DNA of 64,000 nt, from NCBI RefSeq assembly GCF_016864015.1, contig NZ_CP045067.1, forward strand, positions 531,001 through 595,000. The letters run 5' to 3'. Made by a program: the position numbers and the translations under genes. Every line of letters begins with the position of its first letter. Positions within the stretch are counted from its first letter, which is position 1. The stretch comes from Lacinutrix sp. WUR7. GTDB taxonomy: Bacteria > Bacteroidota > Bacteroidia > Flavobacteriales > Flavobacteriaceae. Positions 29,813-45,330 of this stretch are shown piece after piece. The notes beneath the pieces were generated by a model. It had not been told where the DNA came from. It saw nothing but the letters and a program-made list of their open reading frames with translations, and searched no databases.

Positions 29813-30130
29813 TTAGTCCATGACTTTGGAAAGCTTAATCGTTTTCCCACACATATCACTTGTAATTTTAAAAATAACGTCTCCTTTTCTCCCTTTATTT
29901 GCCCAACGTACTTCTTTCCCTGTATTACAAGTAATACTGGTTTTAGAGCCTTTGTTTAAAGAAACAAAACCTGTTCCTGTATAAATGCTCACTTTTTCTT
30001 TAGTATCATTAACTAATGAGAAACTACTTGCAATAGAAATCTCCATATTTTGGGATGCTTTTACAATTTGTTTTTCTTCTGAAAAAGAAAGTAATACGAA
30101 TGCACTTAATGCGATAATTATTGTTTTCAT
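29813..30130 (-). CDS. Small exported protein sharing the LytTR-type promoter module
   Basis: The 105-residue product has a signal peptide (about 1-17, MKTIIIALSAFVLLSFSEE) and a small beta-rich domain with two cysteines (SITCNTGK and DMCGKTI) that could form a disulfide. I do not recognise the family. It has no T9SS sorting domain, unlike the four larger genes upstream, yet it carries the same operator and promoter module. It may be the periplasmic or soluble member of the set. The start is fixed by the signal peptide and the upstream -7 box 27 bp away. Confidence 0.65.
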   Translation of the reverse strand: MKTIIIALSAFVLLSFSEEKQIVKASQNMEISIASSFSLVNDTKEKVSIYTGTGFVSLNKGSKTSITCNTGKEVRWANKGRKGDVIFKITSDMCGKTIKLSKVMD

Positions 30131-30156: not shown

Positions 30157-30225
30157 CAAATATGTTATTAAAAACGATTAAGTAATGCTTCTACTTTCTG
30201 AAATCTTGTTTTCAACTTCTAAACC
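30157..30225 (-). promoter_or_regulatory. LytTR-type operator and promoter module, copy A
   Basis: On the minus strand the half-sites AGAAGTTG (30213-30220) and AGAAAGTA (30192-30199) are 21 bp apart, and 30 bp beyond the 31-bp conserved block is CATATTTG (30157-30164), one mismatch from TAnnTTTG. It drives the 105-aa secreted protein gene. Confidence 0.7.
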
Positions 30226-30256
30226 AGAAAAAACCCATAAGCCTCGCACTTACGGG
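30226..30256 (-). terminator. Terminator after the 266-aa T9SS protein gene
   Basis: On the minus strand CCCGTAAG pairs with CTTATGGG (one G-U) around a 7-nt loop and is followed by T6. It abuts operator copy A. Confidence 0.85.
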
Positions 30257-30282
30257 ATTTCTAAATAAAACTTAACGATATA

Positions 30283-31083
30283 CTACTGTTTGATGAATCG
30301 TTTGGTTGCAACGCTTCCTTCTTCATCTTTAATTATAATAATATACACACCATTTCTTAATTCGGAAGTCACTATTTTTTTGGATGTTGTTTCTAAAACT
30401 TTTACTCCTAAAACAGAATAGATTGCTGCGCTTTTTATATTACTATTCATTTCTATATGTAGAACCGAAGTTGTTGGGTTTGGATATAAAGACACTTTCT
30501 TTACTTGAAACTCATGAACACTTAAAATAGTAGGACAATCTTCCAAAAAACTAGCATTAGATGGTGCACCCCAATTAGAGTTAGGTGTAAATCCAGAATC
30601 TATTTGCACGCAATCTACAGTACTACTTACAACATTAAAACGAGTTACATTACTATTATTACCATTTGCCATATTAATAGCTGTTATGGATGTTGTATGT
30701 CCTTTAAAATCGACTAAATCGGTAAGCATACTTAAATCTAAAATACCAGAAATACCAGTCTGCTCTACTAATAACTGTGTCAGTTTTGTGTTTTGAGAAA
30801 CATCAATACTTGTAAGCGAAGGATTTCCAAAAGCTTGCAAACCTACAATCTCTGTAAAAGCTTCAAGTCCTGTTAAGTCTTGAATACTTGAACCGGAAAC
30901 ATTAATAGTTCCTGTATATGCAACGGCCTCGGTATCTTGTATCTCTGCATCGTTATTTGTATTAATATTCGTATTTGCTACTAATATGGCTTTAAAATTT
31001 GTATCCAGAATAGATACATTTTGTGCATTTGTTACTGCAAATATTGAAATAAATGCAAAAATGGAAAGTAATTTTGTTTTCAT
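30283..31083 (-). CDS. T9SS-secreted leucine-rich-repeat-like protein (266 aa)
   Basis: The protein has a signal peptide (about 1-20), a cap segment DTNFKAILVANTNINTNNDA at about 27-46 that recurs in the 698-aa neighbour, then four or five irregular LRR-like turns (IQDLTGLEAFTEIVGLQAFG, LTSIDVSQNTKLTQLLVEQ). The last 75 residues are a type A sorting domain: LYPNPTTSVLHIEM, AAIYSVLGVKVLET and ATKRFIKQ. Such proteins pass the outer membrane through the T9SS and are fixed to the surface. LRR surfaces bind proteins or glycans; the target is unknown. It is transcribed alone from operator module B. Confidence 0.85.
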   Translation of the reverse strand: MKTKLLSIFAFISIFAVTNAQNVSILDTNFKAILVANTNINTNNDAEIQDTEAVAYTGTINVSGSSIQDLTGLEAFTEIVGLQAFGNPSLTSIDVSQNTKLTQLLVEQTGISGILDLSMLTDLVDFKGHTTSITAINMANGNNSNVTRFNVVSSTVDCVQIDSGFTPNSNWGAPSNASFLEDCPTILSVHEFQVKKVSLYPNPTTSVLHIEMNSNIKSAAIYSVLGVKVLETTSKKIVTSELRNGVYIIIIKDEEGSVATKRFIKQ

Positions 31084-31107
31084 AATTATTTTTTATTGAT
31101 TATGCGA

Positions 31108-31176
31108 CAAAACTACTTGGTAAACGTATTTAAAAACTACATCAATTGCTGAAACCTTATTTTCAACTTCTAAACC
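31108..31176 (-). promoter_or_regulatory. LytTR-type operator and promoter module, copy B
   Basis: Half-sites AGAAGTTG (31164-31171) and AGCAATTG (31143-31150) are 21 bp apart; the -7 box TAGTTTTG lies at 31108-31115, 30 bp from the block. No TTG-type -33 box is seen, which suits an activator-dependent promoter. Confidence 0.75.
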
Positions 31177-31179
31177 AAA

Positions 31180-31212
31180 AAAATCTCGTAAGCATGACAC
31201 TTACGAGATTTT
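31180..31212 (-). terminator. Terminator after the 737-aa T9SS protein gene
   Basis: A perfect stem, ATCTCGTAAG with CTTACGAGAT and a 7-nt loop, is followed on the minus strand by T7. It abuts operator copy B. Confidence 0.9.
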
Positions 31213-31233
31213 CAACAATAACTCAACTATTAA

Positions 31234-33447
31234 TTACTGCTTGATAAATCGTTTGGTAGCAATGCTTCCGTTTTCTGCTTCAATTATAATTAAATATAAT
31301 CCAGTTTTTAAATTAGATGTATTTATCGTATTCGATTTTGTTTCTAAAACTTTTGCACCTAAAACAGAATAGATCGTTGCACCTTTTAGGTTGCTATTCA
31401 TTTTAATATTTAAAACCGATGTTGTTGGATTTGGATATAGTTTTATTTCGTTATTAATGCTATCGAATTGGTTTGTGCTTAATGTAGTACCATATTCGTA
31501 AGCTCCCATATCTACAATAGAATTAAAAATACGTTGACCTCCTAACAAATCTGAAGTTGTTGTTACATACGTGTTATCGCCTGCATCTTTAGCTGGTGAA
31601 TTTGACTGTAATGTAAAGTCTGTAGAACTTGCAAACAAAGGATCTGCAGTATTTGTAGCCGTAGTACTTGTAATACTAGCATCGTTAAAATTTAATGGAT
31701 CTATAGAGTTTCTAACATTTAAAGATTGTACCGCATCGTTATACGTATTGGTAATAGATTTTACTGAAGTTGTTGATCCAGGATAAAAATTATTCCAAAA
31801 AATACAATTAACCACTTCTGCATTTATAGTTCCTGCTGTTTTATTAATTGCAACTACTGCTCTACTGTTAATATTAATTCCACTCCCGGTAGAATTATCC
31901 AGATTATTAACATAAGTGTTGTTAATTAATTTTAAATCCATATTTGCATTTGTACCAATAGATATAAACCAAGAAGCTCTTCCACTTAACCCATCACCCG
32001 AGAAGTTTCCTGCAATATTATTATCGAATAAGCTATTTTCAACTCTTACATCCACATTGGTATTATCTCCTAGATATACATACATACCAGCACCAAAAAT
32101 TGACATATTGTTAATAAATTTACTGTTTTCTATTATTAAATCCCCTGTTGTTCCGGAAGTATTGTTTAACTCGAATTCGGCTAATATACCAGCTGCTCCA
32201 GTTTTAGAAATATTATTTTTAATCGTACAGTCTTTAACGGTTAAATTGGATATTGTTTTTTCTTTAAAAATAGCACCAATTCTTGTAGATGTATGATTAT
32301 GCGTATTAGAAATCGTTAAGCCGTCTAGCACTAAGTTTTCGCCTAAACTTGTTATATTTAAAATACTATAACTATTATCGGTTTTACTGGAGTGCGTATA
32401 ACTATTCACAAAATGGTCGTCTACAAAAACATCGTCTCCATTTAAATCTCCAGTTAAAATAGTTTCGTTACTCCCCAAGACACGCTGAGACAATTGTGTT
32501 TCTGTTCCTGCAAAACCACCATAAATACTTAAATTTGGAACTACTACATCAAAAGATGTAGAACGATTGGTAACTGCTGGTTTATATGTTCCAGAAGCTA
32601 CCCAAATTTCATCGCCATCTGTAGCATTTGTAACGGCACTTTGTAAATTTGTATAAGCATTTGCCCAAGTTGAGCCATCATTACTACCAGTTGCATTAGC
32701 ATTAACATAAAACTTAGTTAGTGAATTTGTTGCTGGGTAATAATTAGCTAAATTGGTGATTTGTGTATCTGAAAGTGCCGATTTATATAAATAAATATCA
32801 TCTATACCTCCTGTATAGGTTCCTGTAGGATCTAAAACCATTTGTGCAGAATGCAAAAAAGTATTTATTACTGTACCATTTAGATCTGCAGATCCAGAAA
32901 TATTGTTTTGTAAAATTCCATCTACAAAAACATCTAATTCTAATTCTGTATTGTAATTAACTGGTGTAGTTCTTAATATAATATTATGCCATTGCCCATT
33001 AGTTAATGCAATAGTTTCGTCTGCGTTCCAATCCGCAAGAACTCCGTAGGTTGAATTCCCTACTTTTGAGATTAAATATAATTTTGAATTGTCCAACTCA
33101 AACCTAAACCCGGCACCAGCGGTTCCATATATTTGAAGAATACGTTGTTGTGTTGCAATACTATTGCTTTTTATCCAAAAGCTTAAAGTCATATTATTAA
33201 CGTTTGTAGCGCCTAGAGTATGACCATTTAAAGTACTCATACCTACTAATGCGTCATTTGCAGCACCGTTTCTATCTGGCCCTATTGTTGGATTGGTATT
33301 GCCTGATAGATTTGGACCGCCATTTAGGGCTGTGTTTGTTAAACTTCCGTTAGTAAATTCAAATTTACCATATTGTCCAGAAGGTAAAATTTGTGAAAAT
33401 GATATGCTACATACAAGTAACATTAAATAAAGTAAACGCGTTTTCAT
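31234..33447 (-). CDS. T9SS-secreted LamG and beta-helix protein (737 aa)
   Basis: After a signal peptide (about 1-19) comes a LamG/concanavalin-like jelly-roll at about 25-230 (NNMTLSFWIKSNS, NGQWHNIILRT, GGIDDIYLYKSALSD). A parallel beta-helix follows from about 245 (FYVNANATGSNDGSTWANAY, DEIWVASGTYKP) to about 640, ending with the choice-of-anchor Q pattern SPAKDAGDN and VDMGAYEYG. The type A sorting domain fills the last 75 residues (LYPNPTTSVLNIKM, ATKRFIKQ). LamG plus beta-helix suggests binding of, or action on, polysaccharide, but no catalytic residues of a pectate lyase can be assigned by eye. It is expressed from module C. Confidence 0.85.
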   Translation of the reverse strand: MKTRLLYLMLLVCSISFSQILPSGQYGKFEFTNGSLTNTALNGGPNLSGNTNPTIGPDRNGAANDALVGMSTLNGHTLGATNVNNMTLSFWIKSNSIATQQRILQIYGTAGAGFRFELDNSKLYLISKVGNSTYGVLADWNADETIALTNGQWHNIILRTTPVNYNTELELDVFVDGILQNNISGSADLNGTVINTFLHSAQMVLDPTGTYTGGIDDIYLYKSALSDTQITNLANYYPATNSLTKFYVNANATGSNDGSTWANAYTNLQSAVTNATDGDEIWVASGTYKPAVTNRSTSFDVVVPNLSIYGGFAGTETQLSQRVLGSNETILTGDLNGDDVFVDDHFVNSYTHSSKTDNSYSILNITSLGENLVLDGLTISNTHNHTSTRIGAIFKEKTISNLTVKDCTIKNNISKTGAAGILAEFELNNTSGTTGDLIIENSKFINNMSIFGAGMYVYLGDNTNVDVRVENSLFDNNIAGNFSGDGLSGRASWFISIGTNANMDLKLINNTYVNNLDNSTGSGININSRAVVAINKTAGTINAEVVNCIFWNNFYPGSTTSVKSITNTYNDAVQSLNVRNSIDPLNFNDASITSTTATNTADPLFASSTDFTLQSNSPAKDAGDNTYVTTTSDLLGGQRIFNSIVDMGAYEYGTTLSTNQFDSINNEIKLYPNPTTSVLNIKMNSNLKGATIYSVLGAKVLETKSNTINTSNLKTGLYLIIIEAENGSIATKRFIKQ

Positions 33448-33474
33448 AATTTTTTGTGTTTATATTTAACAGGA

Positions 33475-33543
33475 CAAATATCTAACACGAAGCATCTATA
33501 AAACAGTATGAATTTCTGAAACCTAATTTTCAACTTCTAAACC
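33475..33543 (-). promoter_or_regulatory. LytTR-type operator and promoter module, copy C
   Basis: Half-sites AGAAGTTG (33531-33538) and AGAAATTC (33510-33517) are 21 bp apart; the -7 box is GATATTTG (33475-33482), one mismatch from consensus, at the same 30-bp spacing. Confidence 0.75.
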
Positions 33544-33575
33544 AAAAAATCTCGTAAACACAGCGTTTACGAGAT
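33543..33575 (-). terminator. Terminator after the 698-aa T9SS protein gene
   Basis: A perfect stem, ATCTCGTAAAC with GTTTACGAGAT, is followed by T6 on the minus strand. It abuts operator copy C. Confidence 0.9.
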
Positions 33576-33600
33576 TGATAAAAATAATTAAAACCATTAA

Positions 33601-35697
33601 CTACTGCTTGATAAAACGCTTGGTAGCAATGCTTCCGTTTTCGTCTTCAATGGTAATTAAATAGAGTCCGCTTTTTAAATTAGCTGTATTTAGGGATTTT
33701 GATTTTGTATCTAAAACCTTGGCTCCTAAAACAGAATACACTGTTGCTTGTTTTAGGTTATTCTTCATTTTAATATTTAAAATAGAAGAGGTTGGATTTG
33801 GGTACAAAGATACAGTGTCCTGTGAAAAATCGTTTACACTTAATGTACTGCAATCTACACTATAACTTGCTCCTGAATCTTTATCAGGCCAGTTTGCATC
33901 ACTATATGCTGCATCATCTACTTGAATACAATTAAGGTATTGGTTTTCTGTAGCAATAAGCTTAGTAGCAGTAAAATTAGTATTATTACCATTTGCTACA
34001 TTTAAACTTGTTAAATCATTAAACGGACACCATAATGTTACCAAATCTGCATTACCAGAAACATCTAAACTTGTTAAATCATTTCCATTACAATAAAGTT
34101 CTGTTAACAGGGTATTTGCCGAAACATTTAAATTGGTTAGCAAATTAGAATTACAATGCAAAAGCGTTAAAGCGGTATTAGCAGAAACATCTATACTTGT
34201 TAAAACATTATTAGAACAATATAATTCTGTAAGATTTACAAATGCTTCTATACCTACTAAACTAGAAACAGTATGATAAGCAACATTTATTAATCCTGTA
34301 AAAGCGGTTGCTTCACTACATTGAATTTGGGTATCCCCATTGGTATTTATTGCTGCATTGCCCACTAAATACGCTTTAAAATTTGTGTCTGGTATATTTA
34401 CGGTGCACACAGAACAGTCTAAACTAAAACTGGATACAGCATCCACATCTATCCAATTTGTATCACTATAACTTACATCGTCTACTTCTATACACGATAA
34501 ATATGGATTATTAAGCGCAGACATATTTAGCATATTTGCATTATTTGTATTCGCAACATTCAAACTCGTTAATAGGTTATCATTACAAAACAAATGTTCT
34601 AATAAGGTGTGCGCAGAAAGATCTAAACTTGTTATTTGATTGTCTGCACAATACATTTTTGTTAAAGCAGTGTTTGCCGAGAGGTCTAAATTTGTTAATT
34701 GATTTACGGAACAATTTAAATCAGACAAAGCAGTGTTAGCCGAAAGATTTAAACTGGTCAATTGATTAGTAGTACAAGATAGTTTTATTACATTCGGATT
34801 ATTAGAAAGATCCAAATTAGATATTTGATTATCGTTACAAAACAAATAAATTAAAGCGGTATTATTTGAAAGATCTAAACTCGATATTTGGTTATCTGAA
34901 TAGTTCAAATAAGTCAATGCAGTATGATTGGAAAGATCCAAACTCGAAATTTGATTACTGTAGCAAGTTAGATATGTTAAAGCCGTGTTATTTGAAACAT
35001 CTAAACTTGTTAATTGGTTATCGTAACAATATAATTTTGTTAAAGCTGTAAAAGCTTCAATACCTGTTAAATCTGAAATAGATAAACTATTACAATATAT
35101 TGCTCCGCTAAAAGCACTTGCTTCACTACATTGTATTTCTGTATCCCCATTGGTATTTATGGCTGTGTTGGCAACTAAATAATTTTTAAAATTAGTATCG
35201 GGAATATTTACATTACATACAGCAGGAATAGAGAATACAATATCATCTATAGAAAATCGGTCTGTACCACTACTACTTGTAATTGTAAAACTAGTAACAT
35301 TTGTCCAATTCACCTGTACAGTACTTCCTGTGGATATGGCTATATTTTGCACAACATTAGCGTTTGTTCCTCCTGTTGGTGTGAATGTCCAGTCTGCAGC
35401 AGTATCCGCATTTCCATCAAAGGCAAATATAGATTGCACATCTATTGCTTCACTAAATGTAACCGTAAAAGAAGTAACATTTCCACTAGAAATAATAGCG
35501 TTCCCATTAGACCCTGCATATCCGCCAGCATTTAGTATCGTTACAGTATTAGAAGAATTTGTACATGTTGCTTGCAAGCTTCCAATAGTCTGTCTTACAA
35601 AATTAGTCCCAAAATAGGATACGGAGCTCCAATCGAAAGTTTGCGCATAACTGAATGTGGAGAATAAGCTAATTAATAGTAATAATCGTATTTTCAT
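33601..35697 (-). CDS. T9SS-secreted leucine-rich-repeat protein (698 aa)
   Basis: Parts in order: signal peptide (about 1-18); a beta-sandwich domain at about 20-158; a cap NIPDTNFKNYLVANTAINTN at 164-183; about nine 21-residue LRRs of the form LTxLxCxxNQLTSLDLSxNTA (about 208-400); a second cap NIPDTNFKAYLVGNAAINTN at 434-453; five more LRRs; and a type A sorting domain ending ATKRFIKQ. The whole cap-plus-LRR block has thus been duplicated inside the gene. These are the internalin- or BspA-like LRRs often found in surface adhesins. At DNA level the repeats have a 63-bp period on 34540-35060. It is transcribed from module D. Confidence 0.87.
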   Translation of the reverse strand: MKIRLLLLISLFSTFSYAQTFDWSSVSYFGTNFVRQTIGSLQATCTNSSNTVTILNAGGYAGSNGNAIISSGNVTSFTVTFSEAIDVQSIFAFDGNADTAADWTFTPTGGTNANVVQNIAISTGSTVQVNWTNVTSFTITSSSGTDRFSIDDIVFSIPAVCNVNIPDTNFKNYLVANTAINTNGDTEIQCSEASAFSGAIYCNSLSISDLTGIEAFTALTKLYCYDNQLTSLDVSNNTALTYLTCYSNQISSLDLSNHTALTYLNYSDNQISSLDLSNNTALIYLFCNDNQISNLDLSNNPNVIKLSCTTNQLTSLNLSANTALSDLNCSVNQLTNLDLSANTALTKMYCADNQITSLDLSAHTLLEHLFCNDNLLTSLNVANTNNANMLNMSALNNPYLSCIEVDDVSYSDTNWIDVDAVSSFSLDCSVCTVNIPDTNFKAYLVGNAAINTNGDTQIQCSEATAFTGLINVAYHTVSSLVGIEAFVNLTELYCSNNVLTSIDVSANTALTLLHCNSNLLTNLNVSANTLLTELYCNGNDLTSLDVSGNADLVTLWCPFNDLTSLNVANGNNTNFTATKLIATENQYLNCIQVDDAAYSDANWPDKDSGASYSVDCSTLSVNDFSQDTVSLYPNPTSSILNIKMKNNLKQATVYSVLGAKVLDTKSKSLNTANLKSGLYLITIEDENGSIATKRFIKQ

Positions 35698-35725
35698 AAT
35701 ATCTTTTTTTTAATGATTTATGAAG

Positions 35726-35794
35726 CAAAACTACTTCCTAAATGCATTTAAAAATTGTTCCAATTTCTGAAATACCGCTTTCAATTTCTAAACC
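35726..35794 (-). promoter_or_regulatory. LytTR-type operator and promoter module, copy D
   Basis: Both half-sites read AGAAATTG (35782-35789 and 35761-35768), an exact direct repeat 21 bp apart. The -7 box TAGTTTTG is at 35726-35733, 30 bp from the block. Confidence 0.78.
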
Positions 35795-35828
35795 AAAAAA
35801 TCCCGTAAACACAAGGCTTACGGGATTT
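35793..35828 (-). terminator. Terminator after the 1093-aa T9SS protein gene
   Basis: AATCCCGTAA pairs with TTACGGGATT, followed on the minus strand by T6. It abuts operator copy D. Confidence 0.88.
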
Positions 35829-35851
35829 ATAACAATAATTAAAACTACAAA

Positions 35852-38800
35852 CTACTGCTTAATAAAACGCTTGGTAGCAACGCTTCCATTTTCGTCTTCT
35901 ATGGTGATTAAATACATTCCTGTATTTAAATTAGATGTATTTATAGTAGACGATTTAGTTTCTAAAACCTTGGCTCCTAAAACAGAATACACTGTTGCTT
36001 GTTTTAGGTTATTCTTCATTTTAATATTTAAAACAGAAGATGTTGGATTTGGGTAGATTTTGATCTCATTTTCATTTAACTGAAAAGTACTAACTCCTAA
36101 TGTAAAATCATATTCATAAGCTCCCATATCTACAGTAGTATCTACGGTTCTATTATTTCCATTTATATCTGTAACGATATGCGCTGGTAAGGAAGCATTA
36201 CTTCCGGTATTTATTGCTGCAGATCCTGCACTTAATGTGAATTTATTATTTGTTGGATTCACAAACATAGGATCACTAGCAGATCCTCCAATCATTCCTA
36301 ACTCCACAATACTATTATTTACCACAGAAAACGAAGTTGTTATTGCTATTGGAAAACCTGTTCCTACTCCATTTCCGTATATAATACTATTTTCAACCGT
36401 ACTGTTCGATGCCTGATTCATAGTAATTACATTTTCATTAAACCCTGTGTTATTAGATAGTGTAGAATTTACTAATTCAAACTCTAGAGCTGAAGCATTC
36501 CCTGAAGTACTAGCCGACAAGAATAAACAAGCAGAACTATTTAGTGATGTATTATTATAAAACACACTATTTACAACAGATCCTTTTGCAAAAATTTGAT
36601 ACTGTTGCGAACCTGAAAACATCATTACTGGTAAATCTTGAGAATAGTTTTCTCTAATAATACAAGACTCAAAATCTACATCGTGTGTGACATGTTGTAA
36701 TCCGCAAGGAGAAAAAGCAGCATATACGGCTACACTAGTTCCTGTATTTTTTTCTAAAATAGAATTTTTAATAGAAGCTGTTAAGCTATCGCCATAAAGG
36801 TATGGATTCGCATAAATTGCGCCTCCTCTTAAATCATAAGATTGATCAATATCTGGAGTTGCACAATTGTTGTCTGTTGCGCCATTTGCATTACCACCAG
36901 TTATAGTAAAACCATCTACTAATACATTTTGCGCATTCCCTCTAATAGAAATTACGTGGTATGCATTATCTTGTCTTGTTGCTTCTGTATCTATAATATT
37001 GGCATTATCATCTGCATTTAAATCGCCACTTAAGATAGTTACATTTGTTTTTGGGTTTCTTTCTGAAACTAGCGTTTCTGTTGTATTAAAACCACCATAA
37101 ACTTTAACATCTCCAGGAATGGTAAATGTTGCTTTTCTAGGGTTTGCATTGGTAGTACTAGGATTATATAATCCTTGCGCCACCCATATTGGTGTTTCCA
37201 TTGTAGCTATTGCTAAAGCGTCTTCTAAATTCACAAAAGCATCCGTCCATGTGGAACCATCATTTAATCCTGTAGCAGCACCATTCACAAATAATACTGG
37301 ATTTACCGTTTGAAAAGTTCCGGTTGCTGAATATGTTCCTGAAGAAGATACACAAGAAGCTCTAACTATTATATCATACATTGTATTAGGATCTAATCCC
37401 GTAATTGTATAAGGATTGCTAACATTAGAAACATTCACAAAATTGGATGTTCCTGTAGGATTGTAACTAATATCCCATACCGTTTCTAATCCTCCAGCGG
37501 TCCATGACACATCTACTGTTGTAAATGTTTCATTCGAACTAACAATATTAGTTGGTATTCCTGAACAATCTAAATTACCATATTCATAAGCCCCCATATC
37601 TACGGTAGTATTCATAAAACGAGTTCTACCACTAATATCATTTAATATGGTACTTGGAATAAAACTATTATCTCCCGCGTCAATTGCTGGCGAACCAGTA
37701 TTTAATTGAAATAAGTTAATACCACTATTAATAAATAAAGGATCGACATTTGTTGCTCCCTGTTGTCCACCTTCTACAATACTATTAGAAACTACAGATC
37801 CAGAAGTAGTAATGGAGAAAGGAGTTGTACTTCCATTATCATAAATAATAGAATTTCTTATTTTACTGTTCGAAGCTTGTGCCATTTCAACAACACTTCC
37901 ATTAGCTCCAACATTATTAGCAAAAGTAGCATTTACAACAGTAACGTTCAAACCACCAGTATTTCCACTATTTGTAGTACTAGCTGCTAATGACAAACAA
38001 GATGCACCATTTAAAGATGTATTGTTATAAAATAAACTATTGGTTACAGTACCATACGCATTATAACCTTCCCCTGAAGATCCGTGATATTCAAAGGCTC
38101 CCGAATTTAAAGAGTAATTATTTGTAATTACACAGTTTGTAAAATTACCTCTAAAATATCTATTATGCGTTGCTGCATTTACTGGACCAAAGCCAGCAAA
38201 AACACTACCATATGTTGCTGAGTTTTTTTCTAAAACACAATTTTGAATGGTGGCAGTTACATTGTTTGAAGTAACCACAGGATTTAGAAATACAGCTGCT
38301 CCTCTTCTGTCTGAATATTGTGAATACACATATCCCCAAACATAATAACCACCATTAGCATTTCCACTCGAAATGGTAAACCCGTCTACAATTACATTTG
38401 CAATCGCTCCTTTCATACTTAAAACATGATATGCATTATCTTGTCTCGTAGCTTCATCATCTGTAATAACATCATTATCATCTCCTAATAAATCTCCACT
38501 TAAAATGGTAACATTATTAGTCACGTCTCTTTGTGAAACCGTAGTTTCCGAAGTATTAAAACCACCATAAAGTTTCGTTCCGTTTAATACTGTAAATGTT
38601 GCTTTTCTAGGATCTGCATTCGTAGTTGTTGGTATATAAGTTCCTTGTGCTACCCAAACCTGATCATTACCAGTAGCAATAGCCAAAGCATCTTCTAGAT
38701 GTGCAAAGGCATCACTCCAAGTGGTTCCATCATCTGCACCTGTTGCTGCATGATTAACATAAATAACACTTCCACTTAATGTGGTGAAATTTGTAGCTAA

Positions 38801-39133
38801 AGTCCAAGCCGTTGCAGTACCATTACAGTTTCCTTGCAAGTATACGTCATACGATGTGTTAGGAGTTAATCCAGTAATTGTTTGTGTATTTCCAGAAATA
38901 TTAGCGATATCTGTTCCAAAGGAAACAGGAAACCCAAATTGCACATATCGCAATGTCGTATCTGTAGAAGAAGAGGTCCAAGACACATCTGCAGCATTTG
39001 GCGCAATATTATAAACAGAAACATCTTCAGGCAAACAATTAGCCCTGTAAACATCCATAACATTGGAGATAGAAGATTCTGCGAAAGAATAGCTACTTAT
39101 AAATAGTAATAAGTAAAGTAAGCGTGTTTTCAT
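35852..39133 (-). CDS. T9SS-secreted protein with two fibronectin III and two beta-helix domains (1093 aa)
   Basis: The protein has a signal peptide (about 1-18), a fibronectin III domain (about 36-118, VSWTSSSTDTTLRYVQFG), a beta-helix starting VIYVNHAATGADDGTTWSDA and closing with VDMGAYEYG (about 520), a second fibronectin III domain (about 522-610), a second beta-helix starting LFVNGAATGLNDGSTWTDA and closing VDMGAYEYD (about 1010), and a type A sorting domain ending ATKRFIKQ. The two halves are clearly an internal duplication. Both helices end in the choice-of-anchor Q pattern (PAIDAGDN and AAINTGSN). Function is likely binding or modifying of extracellular glycans. It is transcribed from module E. 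Confidence 0.87.
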   Translation of the reverse strand: MKTRLLYLLLFISSYSFAESSISNVMDVYRANCLPEDVSVYNIAPNAADVSWTSSSTDTTLRYVQFGFPVSFGTDIANISGNTQTITGLTPNTSYDVYLQGNCNGTATAWTLATNFTTLSGSVIYVNHAATGADDGTTWSDAFAHLEDALAIATGNDQVWVAQGTYIPTTTNADPRKATFTVLNGTKLYGGFNTSETTVSQRDVTNNVTILSGDLLGDDNDVITDDEATRQDNAYHVLSMKGAIANVIVDGFTISSGNANGGYYVWGYVYSQYSDRRGAAVFLNPVVTSNNVTATIQNCVLEKNSATYGSVFAGFGPVNAATHNRYFRGNFTNCVITNNYSLNSGAFEYHGSSGEGYNAYGTVTNSLFYNNTSLNGASCLSLAASTTNSGNTGGLNVTVVNATFANNVGANGSVVEMAQASNSKIRNSIIYDNGSTTPFSITTSGSVVSNSIVEGGQQGATNVDPLFINSGINLFQLNTGSPAIDAGDNSFIPSTILNDISGRTRFMNTTVDMGAYEYGNLDCSGIPTNIVSSNETFTTVDVSWTAGGLETVWDISYNPTGTSNFVNVSNVSNPYTITGLDPNTMYDIIVRASCVSSSGTYSATGTFQTVNPVLFVNGAATGLNDGSTWTDAFVNLEDALAIATMETPIWVAQGLYNPSTTNANPRKATFTIPGDVKVYGGFNTTETLVSERNPKTNVTILSGDLNADDNANIIDTEATRQDNAYHVISIRGNAQNVLVDGFTITGGNANGATDNNCATPDIDQSYDLRGGAIYANPYLYGDSLTASIKNSILEKNTGTSVAVYAAFSPCGLQHVTHDVDFESCIIRENYSQDLPVMMFSGSQQYQIFAKGSVVNSVFYNNTSLNSSACLFLSASTSGNASALEFELVNSTLSNNTGFNENVITMNQASNSTVENSIIYGNGVGTGFPIAITTSFSVVNNSIVELGMIGGSASDPMFVNPTNNKFTLSAGSAAINTGSNASLPAHIVTDINGNNRTVDTTVDMGAYEYDFTLGVSTFQLNENEIKIYPNPTSSVLNIKMKNNLKQATVYSVLGAKVLETKSSTINTSNLNTGMYLITIEDENGSVATKRFIKQ

Positions 39134-39159
39134 AATAAATAAGTTTATAGTTTATGAAA

Positions 39160-39228
39160 CAAAACTACAAGTGAAGTCTATGAAAAAATGAAACCAATTT
39201 CTGAAACACCGTTTTCAACTTCTAAACT
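39160..39228 (-). promoter_or_regulatory. LytTR-type operator and promoter module, copy E
   Basis: Half-sites AGAAGTTG (39216-39223) and AGAAATTG (39195-39202) are 21 bp apart; the -7 box TAGTTTTG is at 39160-39167, 30 bp from the block. It is the first of the five tandem modules, lying just beyond the sensor kinase gene. Confidence 0.78.
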
Positions 39229-39262
39229 AAAAAACCTAATAAACATCTTACTTACAAGGTTT
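39229..39262 (-). terminator. Imperfect terminator after the propeller kinase gene
   Basis: On the minus strand AAACCT pairs with AGGTTT, with a looser inner stem (GTAAGT with TTTAT), followed by T6. It abuts operator copy E, in the same arrangement as the other modules, but lies about 130 bp from the kinase stop. The gap 39263-39394 holds nothing I recognise. Confidence 0.5.
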
Positions 39263-39394
39263 AAACAAAAATATTTTACACTATTTGGTATTCTTTTTAC
39301 AAGAGAAGTTATGTCCTGTTTAGTCTGGGGTTCTTTTCGTGAAGTTTGCAGAAACCTTATTACTTTAAAACGTATTAAAAATAAAAAGTCTCGT

Positions 39395-42319
39395 TTAATC
39401 TATTGTAAATGGAATGATAACATCTACTTGTGTTCCGATAGGATTTTCACCATCAAACAAATCAATAATAGTGACACCTACCTGTTTTTCTTTTCCGTAG
39501 TTTAATAATGCTAAACGATCTTGTGTTGCTTTGGTAGCAAAAGACGCATGCTTTTTACGTCCGCGATTTTTAATCTTATCGGCTTGTTCGCGTCCTACAC
39601 CATTATCAATAATAACACATTTTATGGTATTAGTCGCTAGATGGATATGGAAACTAATTTCTAGTTTCCTATCTGTTTTACGGTGTAACAATCCGTGTTT
39701 TAAAGCATTTTCTACATAAGGCTGAATTAGCATGGTTGGGATATATACCAAATTAGGGTTTAAATCTCCAGTAGCAGTAATTGCATAACTTAGCTTATCC
39801 TCAAAACGTAGTTTCTCTAATTCCAAATACATTTCTAAGCAATTAATCTCTTCTTGTAATGTGATCTTTCCTCTTGTACTATGGCTTAAATACGTTCGAA
39901 TTAAATCGGCAAACTTCCCTAAATACTCACTTGCTAGTCTACTTTTATTTAAAACAATATAATCTTGAATAGAATTAAGTGCATTGAAGATAAAATGCGG
40001 ATTCATTTGTGACCGCAAATTCTCTAATTTTAAAGCGATTAATTCGTTATCTAAAGAGAGTTGTTTTATCTCTAATTGTTTTGCCTTTTCTTTATTTTTC
40101 AACTTCCTTTTATAGTAAAAAACAATAAGACTTATTATGGATAAACTATAGAACAAAATAAACCACCATTTTTTCCAAAAGGGTAATTTTATATGTAGTT
40201 TAATACTTTTAATTCCATTATCACTAACCTCTTTATCATTTGTAGGACGTACTTGAAACGTATATTTACCTGCAGGCAAACTACTATATTTTATGCTATT
40301 TATGTCTAAATCTGTAGTAATCCAATTTTCATTATATCCTAACAAACGGTATTGATAGGTTTTATTTTTATTATATAGAATACCATTCACATTAAAACCA
40401 AATTGTATCGCATTCTGATTATAATCTAAATCATAATCGGTTGTTAGCTCTACTGATTTTTCATTGATTTTTATGTCGGTAAAATAAATTTCTGGGAATG
40501 AAATGGTTTTAAATACTTTATCCTTATCAAAAGAAAAAACACCTTTATTTGAAGACAAGACCACTTGATTCTTTAAAATTTCAATACCAGATATTTTATA
40601 AGACAATATACCGTCTGTTTCTGTTAAATTCTTAAACGTCTTCAAATCGGCATTAAACAATTGCAGCCCATTTGGAGTTGCTATCCAAACAGAATTTTGA
40701 TTTCCCTTTAAGTATGTAATTTGATTAGAAAGCAACCCGTTTTCTGTAGAATAGCGTGCAATAACTTGATTATCTCGTATCGCTAATATTCCATTTTTAA
40801 AGGTACCAACCCAAACGATGCCGTCTGCAGTTTCTGTAATAGAGATAGCCGAAATTTCTTTACCTTCATATTGTATGGTTGTCGCTTTTAAAGCATCATC
40901 TAACACTAATAAATTATCTACAAAACCAATAAAAACAGTATTATTTCTAGAACTAGCATGTGTAGTATACACTCGTTTATCTCTTGAATATATTTTTACT
41001 ATTTCAGAATCTTCATTTAAAAAACACAATCTTATGTACGTTCCAAACAATGTTGTATTTGCATCTAAACGAGAAAAACTTTTTACACCTTTAAAATCTC
41101 CTTTTCTTGTTGCCAACAAGGAGTTATTATTTACAAAATAAGAACCATCATCTGTACTAACATAACTATGTGTTCGCTTTGGGTTATATTGAATAGCAGA
41201 TACTTTATTATTTAAAAAAGAAGATGTTTTGTAAGCAGAAGTATTTACATTAAGGAAACCTACTTGTCCCGCTTTAGAGCCAAAAAAGACTACGGAATCA
41301 TTTACTTTGTTAATAGCCATGATATCGTTGCTTTTTTCAGGCAACATATGCTTTACCACTTCAATATTAGGTATTAAATAAATACCATTGGCAAGTGTGG
41401 TTACCCAATAATTATGATCTTTATCTATAAGAACATCCGTAACTATTTCCTCTTTTAAAATTTGTCTTTTTAGCTGGAATTCTTCTTTATCATTTTCATA
41501 AATAAAAATTCCTTTATTGGTTAAAACCCATAAATCATTATGAATTACTTTTATAGAAATAATTCTTAGATCTGTTAAAAGTTCTAATCCTTTAATTAAG
41601 GTAGTAGTGCCTGCTTTTAGGTTTATACTTCTAAATGTATTTTTAAAATGAAACTGTTGTGAAAAAAATAAAGTACCGTTTAATTCAAACACATACGTTT
41701 GTCCTTGTGCTGTAGATAGTCCGTTAGCATCTCTATAATTAACATTAAACAAAAAATCACGGGTCTCTTTTAGGTCTTTATCTAAGATTTTAATGGTCTT
41801 AAAACTCATAATTAGATATGCGTCTTTTAAGGATAACAATTGATTTCCTCCTTCGTCAATTATCTGTTTTAAAAGAATCTTCTTGGACAATAAATCAACA
41901 ACATAAAAAGCCCTATTAGTAGTGATTAAAACCTTATTATTATTCACTTCAAAATTTGCAAGCTGCCCTTTTAATTCTTCTTTTAAATCTATAAAAGTAA
42001 CTAGTTGATTATTTTCAACATAAAAGAATTGTCCTGAAATATTGGTACACCAAACGCGTCCTTGCGCATCTTCAAAAAGTCCAAAAACCGACAAGCCTCG
42101 TTTTTCTGGATTGGAATATTGTGTATAGGTTATACCATCATATCGATACAAACCACTATCGGAAGCGAGCCAAATAAAACCTTTAGGATCTTCTAAAATA
42201 CCATAGAATTCAATATCTGGTAACCCATCTTTTTCAGTAATATGAATAGACACAGGCTCTTGCGCATAGGTTATGCGGAAAAACAACAGAAAGAATATAA
42301 AAAGTAGGTTTTTATTCAA
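39395..42319 (-). CDS. Two-component sensor: regulator-propeller, Y_Y_Y and LytS-type histidine kinase
   Basis: The 974-residue protein has a signal peptide (about 1-19), then a periplasmic beta-propeller made of two-component regulator propeller repeats (ITEKDGLPDIEFYGILEDPK, GFIWLASDSGLYRYDG, TADGIVWVGTFKNGILAI, NSVWIATPNGLQLFN). A Y_Y_Y domain follows at about 640-725 (YQYRLLGYNENWITTD). After a membrane segment near 732-750 comes a LytS-type kinase: NPHFIFNALNSIQDYI with His775, and the ATP-binding VENALKHG and DNGVGREQ. In hybrid relatives this sensor layout reads polysaccharide breakdown products, but here no regulator is fused; the partner is the LytTR gene just upstream, 108 bp away. 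The ligand is unknown. Confidence 0.9.
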   Translation of the reverse strand: MNKNLLFIFFLLFFRITYAQEPVSIHITEKDGLPDIEFYGILEDPKGFIWLASDSGLYRYDGITYTQYSNPEKRGLSVFGLFEDAQGRVWCTNISGQFFYVENNQLVTFIDLKEELKGQLANFEVNNNKVLITTNRAFYVVDLLSKKILLKQIIDEGGNQLLSLKDAYLIMSFKTIKILDKDLKETRDFLFNVNYRDANGLSTAQGQTYVFELNGTLFFSQQFHFKNTFRSINLKAGTTTLIKGLELLTDLRIISIKVIHNDLWVLTNKGIFIYENDKEEFQLKRQILKEEIVTDVLIDKDHNYWVTTLANGIYLIPNIEVVKHMLPEKSNDIMAINKVNDSVVFFGSKAGQVGFLNVNTSAYKTSSFLNNKVSAIQYNPKRTHSYVSTDDGSYFVNNNSLLATRKGDFKGVKSFSRLDANTTLFGTYIRLCFLNEDSEIVKIYSRDKRVYTTHASSRNNTVFIGFVDNLLVLDDALKATTIQYEGKEISAISITETADGIVWVGTFKNGILAIRDNQVIARYSTENGLLSNQITYLKGNQNSVWIATPNGLQLFNADLKTFKNLTETDGILSYKISGIEILKNQVVLSSNKGVFSFDKDKVFKTISFPEIYFTDIKINEKSVELTTDYDLDYNQNAIQFGFNVNGILYNKNKTYQYRLLGYNENWITTDLDINSIKYSSLPAGKYTFQVRPTNDKEVSDNGIKSIKLHIKLPFWKKWWFILFYSLSIISLIVFYYKRKLKNKEKAKQLEIKQLSLDNELIALKLENLRSQMNPHFIFNALNSIQDYIVLNKSRLASEYLGKFADLIRTYLSHSTRGKITLQEEINCLEMYLELEKLRFEDKLSYAITATGDLNPNLVYIPTMLIQPYVENALKHGLLHRKTDRKLEISFHIHLATNTIKCVIIDNGVGREQADKIKNRGRKKHASFATKATQDRLALLNYGKEKQVGVTIIDLFDGENPIGTQVDVIIPFTID

Positions 42320-42328
42320 GATCTAGGA

Positions 42329-42370
42329 ATTGTAGATAAAGCTACAATAAAATATACTTTAAAAGTATAT
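42329..42370 (-). promoter_or_regulatory. Two inverted repeats before the propeller kinase gene
   Basis: A hairpin ATTGTAG / CTACAAT (42329-42335 and 42342-42348) sits 9 bp before the kinase start, and next to it is a 19-bp palindrome ATATACTTT-A-AAAGTATAT (42352-42370). The first could affect translation; the second has the look of a dimeric repressor site. No promoter box is clear in this 108-bp gap. Confidence 0.4.
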
Positions 42371-42427
42371 ATCTAACTCTTAAAAAAATATTTCTATTAT
42401 AGAATCGTTATTAAGGAATAAAAAAGG

Positions 42428-43180
42428 CTACCCTATATTCTGAACAATGGTCAAGAATTCTTCTTTTTTATCATTAGAAATAGATACGGTTTTATCATTT
42501 TCCATGACAATATATCCACCTTCTTTTTTAATATATTCTTTGATATAGGAAAGATTTATAAGGTGGGAACGGTGTGGACGATAGAATGTCTTTAGTTCCT
42601 GAAGAATATCTACAAAAAATTTCAATGGCTTACTTACCAAAATGCTACCATAAGTAACCGTAGAAACATTGGTGTACATTCCATCTGCTTCTAGCATAAT
42701 AATATCTGTAAAATTAACAAACTTAATCCCATCTGCATTTGGCAATCCTATTTTTTTAAAGTTGGAATCTTGCAAGCTCGCTTTCAATTCTGTTAGGCGT
42801 TTATTGATTTGAGTATTACCCAAAAAGGCAACTGCTTTATCTACTGCTGCTTTTACCTGACTTGGTCTTACGGGTTTTAATAAATAATCTATTGCAGAAA
42901 GTTGAAAAGCTTGTATGGCATATTCACTATATGCTGTTGTGAAAATAACCTCAAAATTATGTACTTCTTTTTCAATGAAATTTAAAATCTCTAAACCAGA
43001 ATGTTCAGGCATTTCTATGTCTAAAAAAACAATACTTGGTTGTTCTTTTTTTATAAGTGCTACTCCAGAAAGCAAATCTTCTGCTTCAAAAATTTCTGTA
43101 ATTTTCGGACAATTTTCTTCTACTAAAATACGTAGAACTTGCCTTGCTTTTTTTTCGTCATCAATTATAAGTGCCTTCAT
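42428..43180 (-). CDS. LytTR-family response regulator
   Basis: The 250-residue protein has a receiver domain (1-120) with the acidic pocket Asp7/Asp8, the phosphoacceptor Asp54 in VFLDIEMPEHSG, Thr in FTTAYSEYA and Lys in LLKPVRPS. The LytTR DNA-binding domain covers about 145-245: GIKFVNFTDIIMLEADGMYT, then FYRPHRSHLINLSYIKEYIK. LytTR domains bind pairs of imperfect direct repeats about two helical turns apart. It sits between two LytS-type kinases on the same strand (87 and 108 bp gaps), so both probably phosphorylate it. I propose that it recognises the AGAARTTG pairs at the five secreted-protein promoters nearby. Confidence 0.92.
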   Translation of the reverse strand: MKALIIDDEKKARQVLRILVEENCPKITEIFEAEDLLSGVALIKKEQPSIVFLDIEMPEHSGLEILNFIEKEVHNFEVIFTTAYSEYAIQAFQLSAIDYLLKPVRPSQVKAAVDKAVAFLGNTQINKRLTELKASLQDSNFKKIGLPNADGIKFVNFTDIIMLEADGMYTNVSTVTYGSILVSKPLKFFVDILQELKTFYRPHRSHLINLSYIKEYIKKEGGYIVMENDKTVSISNDKKEEFLTIVQNIG

Positions 43181-43267
43181 TGGGTATCTTTATTGTTTTA
43201 ATAAGTAAAATGTAATAGTTAGGAACGCTCTAGTTTTAATTCAAAATTTACTCTAACGTGTTCCAAA

Positions 43268-45244
43268 CTATTGTTTTAGAATTGGTATTTTTAAAATAAC
43301 TTTTGTTCCAGTAGCATGATTATTTTCGTACAAGTCGATAATAGCAACGCCTATCTTTTTTTCACGACCATAATTTAATAAATCTAAACGCTCTGTCGTT
43401 GCTTTTAAGGCAAAAGATTTGTGATGTGATTCTCTTTTACTAGTAATTTCTTTAGACTTTTCTCTTCCTATTCCATTATCTTCAATACTACATTCTATAG
43501 TTTTATTAATAGGCTTCCCTATGGAAATCTTCAGTTTTCTATTATCTTTTTTATGCAATAAACCATGTTTTAAAGCATTTTCTACATACGGTTGAATTAG
43601 CATGGTTGGAATATGTATCTCATCTAAATTAGCTGCTTCATCTACTTCAAAAACATATTCTAGTTTTTCTTCGAAACGTAATTTTTCTAATTGCAAATAG
43701 AGGTTTAAATTATGAACTTCCTCTGGAATGGAAATAAATCCAGTATCGCTAAAATGAAGATAATTACGAATTAAATCGGCAAATTTCCCTAAGTAATCAC
43801 TGGCTAGATTTTTCTTATTTAAAACAATATAATCCTGAATAGAGTTTAAGGCATTAAATATAAAATGCGGATTCATTTGTGCTTTCAATGCTTTTAATTC
43901 GGAATCTCTATATTGCTTTTCAATGGCTAAACGTTTCTGTGTTTCCTTAAGTTCTATGGTTACTAATTCGGCTTTCTTTTTTGCTTTCAATCGACTAAAG
44001 TAAAATACCGATGCTAGCAATATTAAGCCTGCAATAACTAAAACCCCTAGAAACAAGTTTCTATTTTTCTGACTTTCTAGTTTTGAAATAACCACTTGCT
44101 GTTCTGCTTTTTCTTTTTCGCGTTTTGTTTTTTCGGTTTCGTATTTTATTTCAATATCCGCAATAGCATTAAGCTTTTCTATACCATGAATAGAGTCCTT
44201 TATATTTTGGTGTTTATTATAATAATCAAACGCTTTTTTGTAATCTTTTTTTGCATAATACAATTCATAGAGTCCTTTAAAACTTTTTTTAAGGGAATTA
44301 ATATTATCGTTTTTTTTCATGCTATCATGAGCCTTTAAAAAATAACGCTCAGCATCCTCATATTTTTCCCAACGTAAAAAGTTGTAAGCAATATTATGAT
44401 TCATATCTATAACTTTACTTTTAAGACTTAACGAAGTATATAAATCTAATGCTTGTAGGTAATAATTATGTGCTTTCTCATTGTTATCCATATAAGAATA
44501 CAATGCTCCTAAACTAGATTTTAACCCCGCTAGACTTCTAGGTCGTGTTACCTTTTTCTCAGCTTCTAAAGCAAAGGATAATGCTTTTTTAAATTCCTTT
44601 TTTTGCCTGTAGCTATTTGTTAAATTAATACATATTCTACCTATTATACTATTATTTTCTTGTGCTTTTGGGTCGTTATAAACTTCCAGATAATAGTCTA
44701 TAGCTTTATCAAATTCATTAATTTCAGCATATAATGCGCCAATATTCATTTTAAGCCACAACGCATTTGTATATTTGTCTTCATCTTTTTCTAGATATGC
44801 AACGACTTCCTTAAAAGTTTTTAACGCATTGGTATAATCTCCTTTTTCTTGAAGCACCATGGCCTTGCTATTTTTAATAATAGCAACTCCATAGTCGTCG
44901 TTAATGGACCTATACAGCGCAATTGCTTGATCAAAATTTAACAACGCCGAATCGAGCTTTTTTACATCGCTATAATATTCAGATAGTTCTCTTAATGCTC
45001 TTGCTTTATTTATAGTACTGTTGGAAGCTTCGCTTGCTTGTAAATATATTTTTATGAAATGTAAATGAATCTCAGAATTTGCACTTCTATACGTCTTTGT
45101 TACTTCTTTTAATTTCTCTAGTTTTAAACTATCATTATTAATGGCAAACAATAGTGTTTCTACGCTATCAATTTGTTTCTCTTGTTGTGAAAAACTCCAT
45201 TGAAAAACAAATAATGCTATAAGCAGTGGTAGTATTCTTTTCAT
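43268..45244 (-). CDS. TPR-containing LytS-type sensor histidine kinase
   Basis: The 658-residue protein has a signal peptide (about 1-19), about seven tetratricopeptide repeats across 60-360 (ALLNFDQAIALYRSINDDYG, AIDYYLEVYNDPKAQ, KAFDYYNKHQNIKDS), a coiled-coil, one membrane segment at about 397-415 (LFLGVLVIAGLILLASVFYF), a second short coiled-coil and a LytS kinase domain: NPHFIFNALNSIQDYI with His460, VENALKHG and DNGIGREK. The kinase domain is very close to that of the propeller sensor, pointing to duplication. TPR domains usually bind peptides or proteins, so the two sensors likely read different signals. A weak copy of the shared operator lies upstream, which suggests feedback control. 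Confidence 0.9.
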   Translation of the reverse strand: MKRILPLLIALFVFQWSFSQQEKQIDSVETLLFAINNDSLKLEKLKEVTKTYRSANSEIHLHFIKIYLQASEASNSTINKARALRELSEYYSDVKKLDSALLNFDQAIALYRSINDDYGVAIIKNSKAMVLQEKGDYTNALKTFKEVVAYLEKDEDKYTNALWLKMNIGALYAEINEFDKAIDYYLEVYNDPKAQENNSIIGRICINLTNSYRQKKEFKKALSFALEAEKKVTRPRSLAGLKSSLGALYSYMDNNEKAHNYYLQALDLYTSLSLKSKVIDMNHNIAYNFLRWEKYEDAERYFLKAHDSMKKNDNINSLKKSFKGLYELYYAKKDYKKAFDYYNKHQNIKDSIHGIEKLNAIADIEIKYETEKTKREKEKAEQQVVISKLESQKNRNLFLGVLVIAGLILLASVFYFSRLKAKKKAELVTIELKETQKRLAIEKQYRDSELKALKAQMNPHFIFNALNSIQDYIVLNKKNLASDYLGKFADLIRNYLHFSDTGFISIPEEVHNLNLYLQLEKLRFEEKLEYVFEVDEAANLDEIHIPTMLIQPYVENALKHGLLHKKDNRKLKISIGKPINKTIECSIEDNGIGREKSKEITSKRESHHKSFALKATTERLDLLNYGREKKIGVAIIDLYENNHATGTKVILKIPILKQ

Positions 45245-45299
45245 TTATGTTGGATATATTGTAAAAATGAAAAAAATATTAGAAGCACCACCTTTTCAT

Positions 45300-45330
45300 T
45301 TGCTGAAATGCGGTTTTGAGCTTTTAACAG
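45300..45330 (-). promoter_or_regulatory. Weaker copy of the LytTR-type operator, before the TPR kinase gene
   Basis: The 31-bp block matches copy E at 21 of 31 positions, with the first nine bases the same as copy B. Half-sites AAAAGCTC (45318-45325) and AGCAAATG (45297-45304) keep the 21-bp phase. At the expected 30-bp distance the strand reads CATTTTTA (45262-45269), two mismatches from TAnnTTTG. The block is about 10 bp nearer the ATG than in the other copies. Confidence 0.45.

Follow-up and report, generated by a model that had tools for sequence, protein, structure and literature searches.

We analysed a stretch of 64,000 nucleotides of contig NZ_CP045067.1 of the marine flavobacterium Lacinutrix sp. 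WUR7 (positions 531,001 to 595,000, hereafter the 64-kb window), in which a short paired DNA block precedes a row of genes for exported proteins beside a two-component system with a LytTR-type response regulator. All genes of this locus lie on the minus strand and, read leftward, encode a TPR histidine kinase, the LytTR response regulator, a propeller histidine kinase and five exported proteins. The first sensor kinase (43268..45244) combines TPR and His_kinase domains and the second (39395..42319, for which the listed TTG start codon is mechanical) a Reg_prop propeller with Y_Y_Y and His_kinase domains; the His_kinase domain (PF06580) was matched in both of these adjoining kinases, with 82.9 and 75.7 bits. 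The response regulator (42428..43180), which is the proposed operator-binding protein, carries a receiver domain (PF00072, 79.4 bits) and a LytTR domain (PF04397, 58.2 bits), both above the cut-off, and its closest named relatives are from Lacinutrix and Oceanihabitans. A first-pass annotation of the same DNA had called it the only LytTR regulator in view, which is true of the window; the genome holds 15 LytTR matches in all. LytTR DNA-binding domains share a conserved FhRhHRS motif, as described in the consulted part of PMC4227749. In the window regulator this motif reads FYRPHRS; when it is aligned with 45 orthologs (some of them truncated), F, P, H, R and S are invariant, whereas Y is kept at 0.98 and the first R at 0.67.

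The five exported proteins are, in leftward order, a 1093-amino-acid (aa) protein with FN3 and type IX secretion system (T9SS) sorting domains (35852..39133), a 698-aa protein with LRR and T9SS sorting domains (33601..35697), a 737-aa protein with a T9SS sorting domain (31234..33447), a 266-aa protein with an LRR-like match below the cut-off and a T9SS sorting domain (30283..31083), and a 105-aa secreted protein that is a recurring target in relatives (29813..30130). Four of the five products thus carry the sorting domain (PF18962/TIGR04183), and the 105-aa product of the last gene in the row is without one.

Before each of these five genes we found one exact match to the motif GTTTAGAARTTGAAA-N6-TTTCAGMAA on the minus strand, located where the first-pass annotation had placed five copies of a shared block: block 1 before the 105-aa gene (30193..30224), block 2 before the 266-aa gene (31144..31175), block 3 before the 737-aa gene (33511..33542), block 4 before the 698-aa gene (35762..35793) and block 5 before the 1093-aa gene (39196..39227). 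Nothing else in the window matched at up to three mismatches, in agreement with the earlier impression from visual inspection, and 100 dinucleotide shuffles of the window yielded 0 matches. We also scanned the window with a matrix built from 51 sites of relatives; the window sites and 11 of the 62 external sites (those before sensor genes) were left out of training, and the three nearest relatives (loci L034 to L036) were included with reduced weight. Blocks 1 to 5 ranked first, with 34.5, 36.1, 36.5, 39.7 and 42.2 bits, respectively, followed by a weaker sixth block before the TPR kinase gene (27.2 bits), and the next match, inside an open reading frame (ORF), scored 15.8 bits. The half-site step is 21 bp in all five blocks and block 4 has AGAAATTG in both half-sites, both as previously described; the description of the half-sites as AGAARTTG and an AGMAATTG-like sequence fails in block 1, because the second half-site there ends in AGAAAGT.

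Compared pair by pair, the five copies were on average 0.97 identical in the first half-site region and 0.93 in the second, whereas the six-base gap between the half-sites reached 0.40, the 28-bp spacer 0.45, the ungapped upstream stretch 0.51 and the -7 box 0.76. Because half-site identity is far above that of the gap, spacer and flanks, the block appears to have been held against drift and not merely copied recently. The same values bear on the idea that it is a functionless leftover of a recent tandem duplication of the intergenic module (terminator, promoter and start), which could account for the layout shared in full by the five copies, for their similar hairpins and for the likeness of their sorting domains. 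Such a leftover would be expected neither to single out the block (0.93 to 0.97) from the gap, spacer and flanks (0.40 to 0.55), with the -7 box apart at 0.76, nor to recur in single-target loci of other genera and at the sensor gene, and we regard this explanation as extremely unlikely.

Downstream of each block lies a -7-like box, which the first-pass annotation had put 30 bp past the end of its block and which is 28 bp past our 32-bp motif: CATATTTG after block 1 (30157..30164), GATATTTG after block 3 (33475..33482), and TAGTTTTG after blocks 2 (31108..31115), 4 (35726..35733) and 5 (39160..39167), all on the minus strand and at offset 28. Among 68 sites (62 external and 6 in the window), a TAnnTTTG box with at most one mismatch stands exactly 28 bp past the block in 59 and 27 bp past it in 5 more, and 57 of the 62 external blocks lie 53 to 71 bp before the called start codon. 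The Bacteroidota sigma-A promoter also has a -33 TTTG element. This element was present at 2 of 67 sites compared with 1 of 67 in a control stretch, which bears out its reported absence and fits what would be expected of an activator-dependent promoter; a sigma-70 promoter scan gave no signal (83 sites compared with 82.1 expected). In Flavobacterium psychrophilum, the -7 box TAnnTTTG is placed at -12 to -5 in the consulted part of PMC9723704, and if the start site lies likewise here, the putative operator would span about -72 to -41.

The terminator and hairpin scan called intrinsic terminators on the minus strand directly upstream of block 1 (30234..30256, that of the preceding gene), block 2 (31179..31213), block 3 (33548..33576) and block 4 (35798..35828); upstream of block 5 it found a weak hairpin (39228..39266, minus strand, z -1.36) with no terminator call. 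At loci L043 and L045 to L049 of relatives (around positions 10752 to 10821), a terminator-like hairpin follows the regulator and its T-run also supplies the TTTTTG for the -7 box of the target; judged by eye, terminator and promoter seem to overlap there.

The genome-wide scan found the block confined to this locus rather than scattered in many unrelated copies. The pattern had only two further matches in the 3.99-Mb genome, both of them within ORFs and with 3 mismatches, and a 70-position profile, trained on 34 target sites of relatives without L034 to L036 and with L053 (which has the same block as the genus mate G004), placed the six window sites on top, five of them at E 2.6e-9 or less. 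Around the other 14 LytTR genes of the genome, to a distance of approximately 5 kb, we found no intergenic TTYAGAA pair (20 to 22 bp, at most 1 mismatch). A rule covering every LytTR protein of this genome was therefore rejected, and the 21-bp pair would be a subfamily rule at most. We did not rely on the genome count of TTYAGAA pairs with 8- to 24-bp gaps (91, compared with 44 for the pattern in reverse), because we suppose that in coding frames this core also encodes Leu-Glu.

For a comparison across species, we used 80 of 141 loci around relatives of the regulator, divided by identity and neighbourhood, without a tree, into an orthologous group of 45 loci (L034 to L078, 60 to 97% identity at the best segment) and another group of 35 (L079 to L113, 46 to 58%). 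The block was present at up to 5 mismatches in 44 of the 45 orthologous loci and in 6 of the 35 others. In a scan with a matrix built from target sites alone, a TTYAGAARYT-like tandem repeat with the 21-bp step and at least 15 bits preceded the next gene at 33/40 orthologous and 0/33 other LytTR loci, and a site of at least 15 bits preceded the upstream sensor-kinase gene at 36/41 and 1/33, respectively; loci without a usable neighbour gene are left out of these counts (4/45 upstream and 5/45 downstream in the orthologous group, 2/35 on each side in the other). At the orthologous loci, 33 next-gene and 37 sensor-gene sites scored above every one of 200 shuffles. The block begins just a few bases past the stop codon of the regulator in many loci, and it recurs in more than 12 named genera, including single-target loci. 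The prediction that the same block would be found beside orthologous regulators in related genomes was thereby borne out, and the comparison supports the proposed local regulon with feedback in that the block tracks this regulator and precedes both the putative targets and the sensor gene.

The first-pass annotation had also assigned two sensors to the regulator, which holds at the window locus but not as a general feature, as both sensor types occur in just 5 of the 45 orthologous loci by hand labels. Upstream of the regulator, the sensor may be of the TPR or the propeller type (L058, L068, L072 and L076 compared with most of L034 to L078), yet its gene keeps the operator, which we read as exchange of the sensor under a constant switch.

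We then considered how closely block and regulator coincide across 299 genomes of the family. The regulator (E 1e-80 or better) occurs in 20 and the exact degenerate block in 8; of these 8 genomes, 7 have a regulator ortholog compared with 20/299 overall (Fisher p 1.5e-8, a value that ignores relatedness), and in the eighth, G184, the match is inside an ORF. Within the genus, five other mates have the regulator ortholog and at least one block, and G002, whose regulator relative has a best match of 48%, is without a block. The profile gave 44 matches (E 1e-3 or better) across 25 genomes, and 34 of these were within 14 kb of the regulator on its own contig. The remaining matches comprise 4 on another contig of the fragmented genome G003, 2 in G184, which is without an ortholog, and 4 unlinked ones (one in G082, two in G200 and one in G089). 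Because most profile matches lie near the regulator, the regulon appears to be mainly local; the unlinked operator in G082 (L169, C4:87874) precedes a gene for a 421-aa T9SS cargo protein.

Several observations weigh against reading the block as the operator of the neighbouring regulator. Because species are not independent, the shuffle and Fisher figures overstate certainty, and the other LytTR group also beats 200 shuffles, at 5/33 sensor and 1/33 target regions with lower scores. The gene directly after the regulator is without a block in 7/40 loci: in L034 to L036, L040 and L053 the next gene encodes a propeller kinase and the blocks lie further on, and in L065 it encodes another response regulator and has no block. 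In L067 the block is present, with the next called gene beginning 343 bp further along. Sensor genes fall below 15 bits in 5/41 loci (L053, L054, L063, L065 and L075), and just 19/42 sensor and 14/40 target regions of the orthologous group contain an exact YAGAA pair with the 21-bp step, the rest having variant half-sites. The exact degenerate pattern is missing in 13 of the 20 regulator-bearing genomes; among these, a profile site at E 1e-3 or better stands beside the regulator in G035, G089, G113, G159, G162 and G211, weaker profile sites occur in G247 (0.0015) and G141 (0.035), and G063, G074, G085, G091 and G253 have none among the matches listed (to approximately E 0.1), G085 and G063 being fragmented.

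Block 6 (45298..45329, minus strand) is also affected, since its genome rank of 6 at E 0.0023 is followed by a match at E 0.0028 and it is thus not separable from background by the genome scan alone; the -7 box at the window TPR kinase is weak as well (2 mismatches at offset 27). Because orthologous loci keep a site before the sensor gene (36/41), we consider the weak block that the first-pass annotation had noticed before the TPR kinase, sixth in the window by matrix score, very probably real and a match to the conserved feedback site.

A sister group within the other LytTR loci (L084 to L113, 46 to 50% identity) has a pair of its own, also 21 bp apart, in which YAGAA is followed mostly by AAA. 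This pair precedes the next gene at 25/28 loci (19 AAA/AAA and 6 AGA/AAA) and the upstream kinase gene at 21/29, and the spacing of YAGAA pairs peaks at 21 bp in the window group and the sister group alike. Among exact pairs of the window group, RYT ends both half-sites at 12/14 targets and 7/19 sensor genes, so the half-site ending differs between the groups at targets and is loose at sensor genes. Alignment of the DNA-binding domains showed residues that differ consistently between the two groups.

These patterns also bear on whether a different regulator, or a repressor at this position, could use the block. That the regulator binds the operator is a prediction from sequence, and the GAAA-N6-TTTC core of the block, being also a short inverted repeat, could suit a dimeric repressor. 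We nevertheless judge this alternative unlikely, because the block tracks this LytTR ortholog, because 21 bp is the peak spacing of YAGAA pairs in both this LytTR group and its sister, and because the upstream position and the missing -33 box fit an activator.

A T9SS sorting domain was found in 36 of 52 scanned targets, which are a hand-picked subset of all targets, and a sorting-domain model built from the window matched 30/56 external targets compared with 21/606 other ORFs in the same loci; at least 5 of those 21 ORFs (in L050, L056, L071, L072 and L073) follow a block missed by the 3-mismatch or same-strand cut. The LRR, FN3, laminin-G-like and choice-of-anchor domains of the targets suggest a role in adhesion. 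An exported protein of 105 to 106 aa recurs as operator target in several lineages. It matched no Pfam family at E 0.001, with weak and inconsistent matches at E up to 1, and a structure search with a model of the 105-aa protein (predicted local distance difference test score of 78, 8 sequences) found nothing at E 0.001 or better, its weak thaumatin-like matches not being trusted.

Among targets in multi-target loci, 22 with a sorting domain were compared: the closest relative of that domain was in the same genome in 11/22 cases (two of them, both in L041, at only 0.56 identity) and the closest relative of the gene body in 0/22; this count leaves out the 105-aa protein, whose query was empty after trimming. 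L034 and L035 carry a 1093-aa and an 835-aa protein in the same slot, with identities of 0.89 upstream and 0.98 in the sorting domain and of at most 0.50 between the bodies. The L034 body is 0.85 identical to that of the 1093-aa target in the window, compared with 0.69 for the upstream module and 0.77 for the sorting domain. Differing bodies with like sorting domains were seen both within and between genomes (window 31234-39133; L034, L035, L037, L040 and L069). This distribution suggests that gene bodies have been exchanged between constant operator and sorting-signal ends.

The near identity of upstream module and sorting domain around different bodies in L034 and L035 would also be expected if the block were kept as a recombination joint for body swapping and not as an operator. 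Because single-target loci and sensor genes keep the block too, and because a joint would leave the fixed distance to the -7 box unexplained, we consider this very unlikely; the block may act as both operator and recombination joint. A broader proposal joins a cassette with constant operator and sorting-signal ends, in which recombination would exchange the bodies and so place each new one under the same two-component control, to sister LytTR systems separated by a three-base discriminator after YAGAA, which would be RYT at the targets here and AAA, sometimes AGA, in the sister group. We offer it tentatively, as possible rather than probable, its odds being reduced because the discriminator is unclear at sensor genes (7/19).

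Taken as the operator of the neighbouring AgrA-like LytTR activator, the block would define a regulon that is local and autoregulated and consists mainly of T9SS-exported proteins, and we consider this highly probable from the comparison of sequences. Two regulator subunits would bind the direct TTYAGAARYT half-sites, which are 21 bp or two helical turns apart, on one face of the DNA. The regulator is proposed to be an activator because it would recruit RNA polymerase where the promoter has a -7 box but lacks a -33 box. Either sensor kinase, of the TPR or the propeller type, could feed the regulator phosphate, upon which it would activate the neighbouring genes for exported proteins, most of which are insulated by a terminator ahead of the block, as well as its own sensor-regulator operon through the sixth block, giving positive feedback. 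We infer binding, activation, phosphorylation, the sign of the feedback and the function of the exported proteins as adhesins.

This arrangement resembles known LytTR systems. LytTR sites consist of two 9- to 11-nt repeats with 11- to 13-nt spacers and share no common sequence, according to the consulted part of PMC4847170, and the block agrees with this rule if its half-sites are taken as 10 nt, because 10-nt half-sites at a 21-bp step leave an 11-nt spacer. In the same part of that source, YpdA/YpdB-yhjX of Escherichia coli likewise pairs a LytS-type kinase and a LytTR regulator with tandem repeats of approximately 10 nt and very few targets (PMC4847170), but it has a single target gene, whereas the targets here would be an adjoining row of exported-protein genes and the sensor gene. 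The AgrA-like mode that we propose includes control of the sensor-regulator operon, and AgrA autoregulates its own operon. Like the regulator studied here, AgrA of Staphylococcus aureus is a LytTR response regulator, and its pair of direct repeats lies upstream of weak promoters with its centre near -60 in the consulted part of PMC4227749, close to the span of about -72 to -41 predicted here. The two differ in repeat sequence, phylum, promoter class (a -7 box here) and kinase types, and no peptide-signal gene was recognised at this locus, without a special search for one.

Within the Bacteroidota, PorXY-SigP of Porphyromonas gingivalis similarly ties two-component control to type IX secretion, but its targets, as far as the consulted excerpts go, are genes of the secretion machinery, whereas cargo genes would be targeted here; to our knowledge, it is not a LytTR system. 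Flavobacterium psychrophilum likewise has a tandem array of genes for LRR surface proteins, 17 in number, that are induced together by plasma, and the consulted part of that report names no regulator or operator for them (PMC9723704). In the titles and abstract openings of open-licence literature we found no described operator of a Bacteroidota LytTR regulator.

The locus therefore offers a candidate operator for a Bacteroidota LytTR regulator, with its sequence, geometry, promoter, sensors and targets, in more than 12 named genera. Because a sister system has another half-site ending, how LytTR proteins tell their sites apart becomes a directly testable question. Dozens of related bacteria retain the predicted paired site in an unchanged position, and through it the two-component system of this marine flavobacterium appears to turn on both the adjoining surface-protein genes and the gene of its own sensor. 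The locus also offers a way into the question of how repertoires of T9SS surface proteins are activated and renewed.

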